Assembly (NCBI GenBank): GCA_016125475.1
Contig: WGLR01000010.1
Location: 186,001-250,000 of the forward strand
Direction of reading: 5' to 3'
Length of the DNA: 64,000 nt
DNA from: Betaproteobacteria bacterium
GTDB taxonomy: Bacteria > Pseudomonadota > Gammaproteobacteria > Burkholderiales > Ga0077523
The notes under the pieces are model-generated. The model ran no database searches and had not been told where the DNA came from. It worked only from the letters and a program-made list of their open reading frames with translations. The position numbers and the translations under genes are program-made. Positions 13,914-16,621 of the stretch are shown one piece after another; within the stretch, counting starts at the first letter, position 1, and each line of letters opens with the position of its first letter.

Positions 13914-14038
13914 GAGTCGGGCTCCTGCAGTAAGGGGACGGGTCTCACCCGTCGTGTTCGTCGTGCACGGGAGGAAAGCGGTCCTCCGGGATGCACGACT
14001 CGCGCCAACACGGCGGTTCGGGGCGCGCGGGATGCCCT

Positions 14039-14044
14039 TATCAT
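14039..14044 (+). promoter_or_regulatory. Possible -10 box of the enolase-superfamily gene
   Basis: TATCAT matches the sigma-70 -10 consensus at 5 of 6 positions, 36 bases before the ATG, with only a poor TTCGGG 16 bases upstream. It lies in the 167-bp gap between two divergent genes. Confidence 0.25.
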
Positions 14045-14080
14045 CCTGGCTTCCGCACCACCCGTCGCTGCCCCACGAAA

Positions 14081-15187
14081 ATGAAGATAGACCGGATCGA
14101 GACGAGCCTCCACAGAATTCCTCTGCCCGTACCGGTCGAGGCCGCGAGCCACGGCGTGATGCGGGCCTTCGACATGGTCGCCGTGCAGCTCACGGACAGC
14201 GACAGTGGAACCGGCTGCGGCTACACGGTTCTCAATGCCGGGCACGGCGCCGGCGCTGCCGCCGTGATAGACAACGCCTTCGCCGCCGGGGTTCTCGGCG
14301 AGGATCCCCGCAGGATCGAGTGGCTCTGGAACCGGCTCTGGCGTTCGCACCACTATTCGGGACGCGGTGGTCTCGTGAGCTTCGCGATCGCGGCGGTGGA
14401 CACGGCGCTCTGGGACTTGCGGGGGAGGCGGCTCGGAGAACCCCTCTGGCGACTCCTCGGGGGATACCGGCCCGAAGTGCGTGCCTACGCAGGCAACATC
14501 GACCTCAACTTCCCGATGGCGAAACTCCTCGACGGGGTGCGGGCGAGCCTCGCGGCCGGATACCGGTCGATCAAGATGCGTCTCGGCCGGCCCGGCCTGC
14601 ACGAGGACGTCGAGCGGGTCCGGGCCGTGCGGGAACTCGTCGGCCGGGACATCGAACTGATGGCCGACGCGAACGAGGCCTGGCGCGTCGATCAGGCGAT
14701 GCGTGCGTTCCGGGCGCTGGGCGAATTCGGGCTCGTCTGGATCGAGGAACCGATCCGCCCCGACGACTTCGCCGGGTATGCCCACCTGCGTGCGCACGGC
14801 GGGGTTCCGATTGCAGCGGGCGAGAATCTCCACACGGTGGCGGAGTTCACGGCGCTCATCGCGGCCGGCGGCGTGGACTTTCCGGAGCCCGATCTCACGA
14901 CCTGCGGCGGGATCACGCCGTGGATGAAGATCGCGCGCCTCGCCGAAGCGCACGGTCTGCCCGTGACCTCGCACGGCGCACACGACCTTCACGTGCACCT
15001 TCTTGCAGCGTGCCCGAATGCTGCCTATCTCGAGGTGCACGGTTTCGGGCTGGGCGACTACATGGCCAGCCCGCTCGTGATCCGCGACGGCATGGCGGTC
15101 GCGCCGGACCGGCCAGGTCACGGCATCGAGTTCGACTGGGAACGGCTCGCCGCGCACCGCGTGGCCGGTTCGGTGACGACGGGCTGA
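14081..15187 (+). CDS. Mandelate racemase/muconate lactonizing enzyme family protein
   Basis: A 368-residue enolase-superfamily enzyme; the ATG at 14081 gives the usual N-terminus (MKIDRIETSLHRIPL). The barrel has KMR at 165-167 (base lysine in a K-x-R form), metal ligands Asp196, Glu222 and Glu248 at the normal 26-residue spacings, Asp271 and catalytic His298 (SHGAHDLH). This Asp-His dyad places it in the mandelate racemase group, most of whose members dehydrate or epimerise sugar acids. The exact substrate is unknown. It is divergent from an NAD-dependent hydroxyacid dehydrogenase, which may act in the same route, and is followed by the 107-bp repeat array. Confidence 0.9.
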   Translation: MKIDRIETSLHRIPLPVPVEAASHGVMRAFDMVAVQLTDSDSGTGCGYTVLNAGHGAGAAAVIDNAFAAGVLGEDPRRIEWLWNRLWRSHHYSGRGGLVSFAIAAVDTALWDLRGRRLGEPLWRLLGGYRPEVRAYAGNIDLNFPMAKLLDGVRASLAAGYRSIKMRLGRPGLHEDVERVRAVRELVGRDIELMADANEAWRVDQAMRAFRALGEFGLVWIEEPIRPDDFAGYAHLRAHGGVPIAAGENLHTVAEFTALIAAGGVDFPEPDLTTCGGITPWMKIARLAEAHGLPVTSHGAHDLHVHLLAACPNAAYLEVHGFGLGDYMASPLVIRDGMAVAPDRPGHGIEFDWERLAAHRVAGSVTTG

Positions 15188-15218
15188 CCGTGGGGGGCCG
15201 GGTGCGGAGGACGGCGCC

Positions 15219-15660
15219 GGTGCGCGGTGCGCACCCTACCGGGGGCGCCGATCGGACCGCGTGGTCAAAGGAACGCGGCCTGCGAGCGACGTAAGGCGGG
15301 CACGGCCCACGCGGGCGAGGCCACCGGTGCGCGGTGCGCACCCTACCGGAGGCACCGATCGGACCGCGTGGCCCAAGGGACGCGGCCTGCGAGCGACGTA
15401 GGGCGGGCACGACCCACGCGGGCAAGGCCACCGGTGCGCGGTGCGCACCCTACCGGGGGCACCGATCGGACCGCGTGGTCAAAGGAACGCGGCCTGCGAG
15501 CGACGTAGGGCGGGCACGGCCCGCGCGGGCGGGGCCAAACGGTGCCCGGTGCGCACCGGGGAAACGGTGCGCGTGGTCAAACGAACGAGGCCCGCGGGCG
15601 ACGCAGGGCGGGCACGGCCCACGCGGGCGGGGCCGAATGGTGCGCGGTGCGCAGCCTGCG
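15219..15660. repeat. Tandem array of ~107-bp GC-rich palindromic units
   Basis: Units start at 15219, 15326 and 15433 (exact 107-bp period, near-identical), then a diverged unit at 15541 of about 98 bp and a partial unit at 15639. Each begins with the hairpin GGTGCGC-GGT-GCGCACC, followed by CCTAC; near its end it carries GTAGGG, which can pair with the next CCCTAC to give a larger stem. There are no unique spacers, so it is not a CRISPR array, and 107 is not a multiple of three, so the ORFs across it are not real. It fills nearly all of the 519-bp gap between two convergent genes and may act as a two-way terminator. It resembles REP-like GTAGGGTG..GCACCCTAC elements dispersed in many beta- and gammaproteobacterial genomes. 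Confidence 0.9.
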
Positions 15661-15706
15661 GGTGGTGTGGCGAGCTCGATCGCGACGGGGGCGACGTGGC
15701 GGTACC

Positions 15707-16621
15707 TTACAACGGATCCCAGCTGAAGACGTCCTGCGACCGGTCGAGCGGATAGAAATGCGCCCGCAGCGACGGGATCGCGTGTTCCGCGATGGCCTCC
15801 GCCGTCCAGCCGTCGGAACGGTGCACGGACCGCACCGGGCGGTTCTGGCTGAACAGGAAGATCTCGTTCGCGCGCACGCCGAAGATCTGGCCGCTCACGC
15901 CGTCGGCTGCGTCGGACGCGAGATAGACCGCAAGCGGCGCGATCTTCGCCGTCTCCATCCGCTTGAGGCGTTCGACGCGCGCCTTCTGCTCGTCGGTGTC
16001 GGTCGGGATCGAGCCGATCATGCGGCTCCACGCGAACGGGGCGATGCAGTTGGACCGCACACCGTACCGCGACATGTCGAGCGCGATCGACTTGGACAGG
16101 CCGACGATGCCCAGCTTCGCGGCGGCATAGTTGGCCTGCCCGAAGTTGCCCACGAGGCCGGACGTGGACGTCATGTGGACGTAGCTGCCGCGGTTCGCGC
16201 TCCGGAAATGCGGCGCGGCGGCCCGCGCGACGTAGAACGACCCGTTCAGGTGCACGTCGATCACGGCCCGCCACTCTTCCACGCTCATGTTGAAGAAGAA
16301 CCGGTCGCGCAGGATGCCTGCGTTGTTCACGACGCAGTCGATGCGGCCGAACGCATCCATCGCTGTCTCCACGATCCGGTTCGCGGCGCTCCAGTCGGCC
16401 ACCGAATCGGTGCTGGCGACGGCGGTTCCCCCGGCGGCTCGAATCTCCGACACCACCCGCTCGGCCGGGCCGGGGTCGTGTCCGTCTCCCGAGACGGACG
16501 CCCCCACGTCGTTCACAACCACCCGCGCGCCGTGCGAGGCCATCGCGAGCGCGAAGTCCCGGCCGATGCCGCCGCCGGCACCGGTCACGATCACAACCCT
16601 GTCCTCGAGCATCGCATTCAT
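15707..16621 (-). CDS. SDR-family 3-hydroxyacyl-CoA dehydrogenase-like protein
   Basis: A 304-residue short-chain dehydrogenase. The Rossmann motif TGAGGGIG, the NNAG strand and the catalytic Ser152, Tyr165 and Lys169 are all present. VVVNDVGASVSG and the ~50-residue C-terminal extension beyond the usual 250 residues are typical of the 17-beta-HSD type 4/multifunctional-enzyme branch, which oxidises 3-hydroxyacyl-CoA or steroid substrates. AGGAGG lies 9 bases before the ATG. It is divergent from the thiolase-like/DUF35 pair, so a role in side-chain degradation of a bulky acyl-CoA is plausible. Confidence 0.88.
   Translation of the reverse strand: MNAMLEDRVVIVTGAGGGIGRDFALAMASHGARVVVNDVGASVSGDGHDPGPAERVVSEIRAAGGTAVASTDSVADWSAANRIVETAMDAFGRIDCVVNNAGILRDRFFFNMSVEEWRAVIDVHLNGSFYVARAAAPHFRSANRGSYVHMTSTSGLVGNFGQANYAAAKLGIVGLSKSIALDMSRYGVRSNCIAPFAWSRMIGSIPTDTDEQKARVERLKRMETAKIAPLAVYLASDAADGVSGQIFGVRANEIFLFSQNRPVRSVHRSDGWTAEAIAEHAIPSLRAHFYPLDRSQDVFSWDPL

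Follow-up and report, generated by a model that had tools for sequence, protein, structure and literature searches.

A tandem array of REPIN-type units and local flanking DNA between convergent genes of a betaproteobacterium

Tandem arrays of REPINs or BIMEs together with their flanks are already well published. In P. fluorescens SBW25 most REPINs are described as singlets (Bertels and Rainey 2011, PMC3116915), and the BIMEs of Stenotrophomonas are described as basic modules joined head to tail (Nunvar 2010, PMC2817692), the latter source also giving a model in which rolling-circle copying is driven by the RAYT. REPs of the GTAG super-family are reported to favour convergent and unidirectional gaps between genes (PMC3733652), and the REPs of E. 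coli are reported to contain a mismatch bulge that is required for activity (PMC8266576). The array investigated here is found in a window of 64,000 nucleotides (the whole stretch of DNA that was analysed) from a betaproteobacterial draft genome of 4.88 Mb in 48 contigs, and it is an ordinary case of REPs and REPINs. As tandem arrays are well documented and others were found in the same genome, it does not constitute an exception to the REP class.

When compared to the SBW25 clusters as described in PMC3116915, the array has the same kind of unit, two inverted REPs, and is likewise found in a genome encoding RAYTs, but the REP sequence is a different one, the two arms (here named A and B) differ from each other in sequence, and the period is 107 bp. 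The modular BIMEs of Stenotrophomonas and E. coli, in the account of PMC2817692, also comprise two inverted REPs and two intervening segments in head-to-tail order, and their RAYTs are flanked by REPs, as is the case here. Furthermore, two kinds of REP occur in one BIME, as with Y and Z2 in E. coli, and the host is the point in which the array differs from the BIMEs of that account. With the GTAG super-family as presented in PMC3733652, the array shares a GTAG beside a palindrome, inverted dimers, and clusters repeated in tandem along with DNA from their flanks, but it has its own particular stem sequence, and here only convergent gaps are found in excess. Unlike the bulged REPs of E. coli, arm A has a fully paired stem and a loop of 3 nt, which is how group 3 REPs have been described. 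A limited text search of the literature gave no match to the first 11 bases of arm A. The array leaves the picture of REPs unchanged; its contribution is a REP/RAYT pair that is clearly biased towards convergent gaps and has its copies crowded on a few contigs, that of the RAYT among them, as well as a warning that REP arrays are found at the breaks of draft assemblies.

The existence of the array is confirmed. Tandem Repeats Finder reported 4.2 copies of a 107-bp period (score 623), and an analysis of repeat families gave ungapped copies at successive steps of 107, 107 and 98 (Table 1). The array takes up most of a 519-bp intergenic gap, towards which the genes on both sides are read; the start of the left gene is uncertain, as the codon-usage caller chose 14081. 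The original prediction of three near-identical units at constant 107-bp spacing, followed by a step of about 98 bp and a partial unit, agrees with these results, and the GGTGCGC/GCGCACC hairpin, the GTAGGG/CCCTAC ends and the placement between convergent genes were all recovered. The array had also been called exact, which holds for its spacing and not for its sequence: units 1 (15217-15323) and 2 (15324-15430) differ at 8 of 107 positions (92.5% identity), as do units 2 and 3 (15431-15537), and units 1 and 3 differ at 4 of 107 (96.3% identity). Each unit contains two GTAG-type palindromes that are inverted and face one another, and its 107 bp consist of a REPIN of 56–57 bp (arm B, 9–10 bp, arm A) and a flank of 51 bp. 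The array opens with an arm A lacking a recognised partner and closes with a degraded pair. A degenerate REP pattern gave nine matches in the window, eight of them inside the array, whereas 100 shuffles averaged 0.51 matches and never gave more than 3.

Table 1 Features of the array and its flanking genes, in window positions.
Feature	Position	Strand	Details
Left flanking gene, enolase superfamily (MR_MLE)	13991..15187	+	ORF list; Pfam PF13378 (E 1.3e-67), PF02746
Whole tandem array	15217..15657	.	period 107, then 98; Tandem Repeats Finder and repeat families
REP arm A, unit 1	15219..15239	-	exact pattern match; no plus-strand partner recognised to the left
Inter-REPIN flank, 51 bp	15240..15290	.	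repeats at 15347-15397 and 15454-15504; diverged 41-bp form at 15562-15602
REPIN 1	15291..15346	.	arm B 15291-15316 (+, GTAA variant, 5/6 stem pairs); arm A 15326-15346 (-)
REPIN 2	15398..15453	.	arm B 15398-15423 (4/6 stem pairs); arm A 15433-15453
REPIN 3	15505..15561	.	arm B 15505-15530 (6/6 stem pairs); decayed arm A 15541-15561
REPIN 4	15603..15659	.	arm B 15603-15628 (GCAG, 5/6 stem pairs); arm A 15639-15659 (GCAG, 2 mismatches)
Right flanking gene, short-chain dehydrogenase (SDR)	15707..16621	-	ORF list; Pfam PF00106 (E 7.3e-43)

The two arms were searched for in the whole genome. At up to three mismatches, arm A was found at 129 sites, four in the array and 125 outside it (reversed control pattern: one site), and arm B was found at 17 sites, four in the array and 13 outside it (control: none). 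The further copies expected of a REP-type element are thus present, and with 129 sites against one in the control the element is both dispersed and of high copy number, as is characteristic of GTAG-type REPs. The detailed counts given below rest on 125 of the 129 arm-A sites, which were fetched together with their surrounding regions. These group into 50 places, separated from each other by more than 1 kb and spread over 26 of the 48 contigs, with one site at 16 places, two at another 16, and three to eight at the remaining 18. That REPs normally occur singly or in pairs, as the original prediction had assumed, therefore holds for the majority of places (32 of 50) and not as a rule, since tandem arrays are known from the literature and this genome has further ones, on contigs C5 (period 139–140) and C27 (period 81–82). 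Of the 71 pairs of neighbouring arm-A sites that lie within 200 bp of each other, 51 are inverted, 14 of these being 79 bp apart from start to start, and within the array the two arms, B and A, face each other; inverted pairs at a set distance, the hallmark of REPINs and BIMEs, are thus found in both settings.

The minus-strand arm A is made up of GTAG and a perfect stem of 7 bp closed by a loop of 3 nt, which is the combination of GTAG and a short palindrome (20–40 bp) that identifies a GTAG-type REP, and it is letter-identical across the first three units. The fourth minus-strand arm has lost the GTAG and part of the stem, and the last one carries two mismatches. The palindrome of the plus-strand arm B is related to that of arm A, and its four array copies differ in their number of stem pairs (Table 1). 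At the 125 fetched sites the tag of arm A is GTAG in 96 cases, GCAG in 21 and another sequence in eight. The innermost of the seven stem pairs shows a compensated change on both sides at 19 of these sites and is broken at one, and the outermost pair is broken at 35. Folded as single-stranded DNA, arm A was more stable than most shuffled sequences (z -3.41; 3 of 200 shuffles equally good); for arm B of unit 2 and for REPIN 2 in full, z was 0.41 and 0.06, respectively, no better than shuffles. As RNA folds of one 107-bp unit and of the whole array were likewise no better than shuffles, we do not claim a conserved RNA structure for the unit.

A gene encoding a REP-associated tyrosine transposase, the type of enzyme for which a search had originally been proposed, was found on a contig other than that of the array (C2:38486-39028), with REPs on both sides. 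The matched domain was NCBIfam NF047646 (146.7 bits, cut-off 80), and the sole PDB sequence at E <= 0.001 was TnpArep from E. coli (4er8, E 1.1e-43). Residues 1-86 and 111-171 can be aligned to the latter, and the aligned parts contain an H-x-H and the Y of YIHANPVKHG, which we take to be the catalytic residues. Pfam Y1_Tnp scored 25.1 bits in the genome search (cut-off 23) and was not reported when the protein was searched against Pfam at 1e-5. Within the RAYT locus (L037, numbered internally), two inverted pairs of the A/B type (1668-1752 and 1765-1849) and one REP at 1857 are found upstream of the gene, and REPs at 2686 (+) and 2802 (-, GCAG) downstream. The upstream A arms have one extra stem base, and two of the five upstream tags are GTCG. 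The nearest REPs on either side, 1857+ (GTCG) and 2686+, have the same orientation, the inverted partner being located further out at 2802; the RAYT is thereby flanked by inverted cognate REPs (e.g. 1765+ and 2802-), as in a REPtron, where cognate refers to likeness in sequence. Two other proteins with a Y1_Tnp domain are encoded at C18:64744-65070 and C8:189090-189413. Judged by matched domain only, neither is a clear RAYT, the former scoring 36.2 bits against the cut-off of 80 and the latter having no NCBIfam match.

The REP sites were unevenly distributed, with 62 of the 125 fetched sites on the RAYT contig C2 and on C5, C16, C21 and C27, which were chosen after their densities had been seen and together make up 4.1% of the assembly. 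This resembles the accumulation of REPs near a RAYT gene described in PMC2817692, and gives the impression that the REPs spread in the neighbourhood of a recently acquired RAYT, though the dense contigs may also reflect REPs splitting the assembly into small contigs.

The reading of the array as a locally amplified REP-type element is supported. We consider it very probable that the array is a REPIN cluster, or modular BIME, in which a founder was placed by a RAYT in a convergent gap and then grew in place together with its flank. The ancestral REPIN would presumably have been placed by a RAYT/TnpAREP acting on single-stranded DNA, landing between the two convergent genes, and the RAYT of this genome may have made that first insertion. 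The REPIN and its 51-bp flank would then have multiplied in place, head to tail, either by RAYT-driven copying or by replication slippage or unequal recombination. Given the decay of arm B in the array, the REPINs there may have ceased to serve as substrates. Effects on the host, if any, would probably be modest and confined to the 3′ ends of genes, where hairpins in both converging transcripts could hinder exonucleases or read-through.

The placement of REPs relative to genes was assessed using gene calls from a simple codon-usage caller trained on the window. Assigned by midpoint, 93 of the 94 classifiable sites are located outside called genes, in line with the extragenic nature of GTAG-type REPs (31 of the 125 sites are at edges and unclassified). 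The 39 gaps bearing REPs comprise 21 convergent, 13 unidirectional and 5 divergent ones, compared to 7, 58 and 19 among the 84 REP-free gaps of the fetched regions (21/39 vs 7/84 convergent, p 7.9e-8), and to 4, 44 and 17 when the REP-free gaps are restricted to the 65 that measure 50 bp or more (p 6.0e-8). This preference is in agreement with the one reported for other GTAG REPs (PMC3733652). In the whole window, 8 of 41 gaps are convergent, including that of the array.

Both this strong convergent bias and the location of the array between convergent genes would also be expected of a cluster of bidirectional terminators or mRNA-stabilising hairpins that has been selected at two converging 3′ ends, with mobility being incidental, and a decaying arm B beside an arm A that is identical in three units would fit such a role. 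This explanation is compatible with a REPIN cluster, but we regard it as rather unlikely: U-tract terminators were not found (0 found, 0.4 expected), RNA folding was no better than shuffles, and mobility is needed in any case to account for the dispersed family and the RAYT. The same placement bias would furthermore follow from an avoidance of promoters, and the convergent preference of the REPs may stem from such avoidance and not from function. The search for intrinsic terminators and promoters covered 15100-15800 and detected neither. It is more doubtful still that REP or REPIN arrays have been recruited in this lineage as two-way 3′-end insulators of convergent pairs, with the copy number of the array under selection, a proposal based on arm A being held identical while arm B drifts and on REP gaps being far more often convergent.

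A wrong copy number produced by the draft assembly seems highly improbable for the array itself. Arm-A sites are found within 500 bp of 12 of the 96 contig ends, which hold 33 of the 125 fetched sites, with about one expected by chance, so REP clusters do occur at the breaks of this assembly. The array units, however, differ at 4–8 positions, and the contig continues across the array into open genes on either side. Usual short reads exceed 107 bp in length, and given the differences between units, neighbouring ones can thus be distinguished. REP-bearing ends were seen on contigs C5, C13, C14, C16, C21, C23, C26, C43, C46 and C47; there, REP clusters probably broke the assembly, and the true sizes of arrays elsewhere may be larger than assembled.

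The preferred reading, a REPIN cluster grown in place, is supported by searches for its flank. A query of the flank plus 9 bases matched the three array units, and its best match elsewhere had an E-value of 0.136 (all 9 candidates in the genome scored); a near-full-length 107-bp unit was not found elsewhere among the 40 of 77 first-look candidates that were scored. As the flank is without a significant match outside the array, multiplication was local. The dispersed unit is a REP arm or the 56–57-bp inverted pair (REPIN/BIME), and the 107-bp unit is the REPIN plus local flank. The amplification of a REP-like element originally proposed thus stands, and recent applies only in a relative sense, the units differing at 4–8 of 107 positions. 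Plain tandem duplication of the satellite or VNTR type, with incidental palindromes, would agree with the constant spacing and with the restriction of the 107-bp unit and flank to the array, but it accounts for the amplification step and not for the nature of the unit, both REP arms of which have further sites in the genome (125 for A and 13 for B), and it is the least probable of the alternatives, a pure satellite being ruled out by the dispersed arms. The array is not a CRISPR array, its spacers being themselves repeated, nor an intrinsic terminator (stem and U-tract), of which none were found, and searches of the window against Rfam at gathering thresholds and for tRNAs returned nothing.

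In the order, the REP was found at up to two mismatches in 21 of 399 genomes, with 109 sites in the genome of the array, 68 and 58 in G140 and G176, which belong to other families, and at most 12 in any other. None of the 11 genomes of the same genus contained it at this threshold, giving the REP type a patchy distribution, abundant in two genomes of other families and absent from congeners. At up to three mismatches, three of the 11 congeners had one site each, a level that the reversed control also reaches in some genomes. RAYT homologues at E <= 1e-20 are encoded by 80 of the 399 genomes, 13 of the 21 with the REP compared to 67 of the 378 others (p 1.8e-5, with the array's own genome included and kinship not corrected for). 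The eight REP-bearing genomes without such a homologue contain 12, 4, 3, 2, 2, 1, 1 and 1 sites. Of the best 20 RAYT loci in the order, which include that of the present genome, 18 have GTAG hairpins (71 in total, compared to a mean of 2.65 in single-base shuffles) and two gave none in the scan; the string GTAGGGTG occurs at least once in 17 of the 20.

The product of the SDR gene to the right of the array is 82% identical to a protein from another family of the order, whereas the best matches in the 11 congeners reach 40–44%, a hint that the gene was transferred horizontally or was lost in the genus. In the 1.5 kb on the array side of the locus with the 82% match (L056), no enolase-like ORF was seen by eye. 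The best matches to the SDR protein in other families show identities of 82, 72, 70 and 65%.
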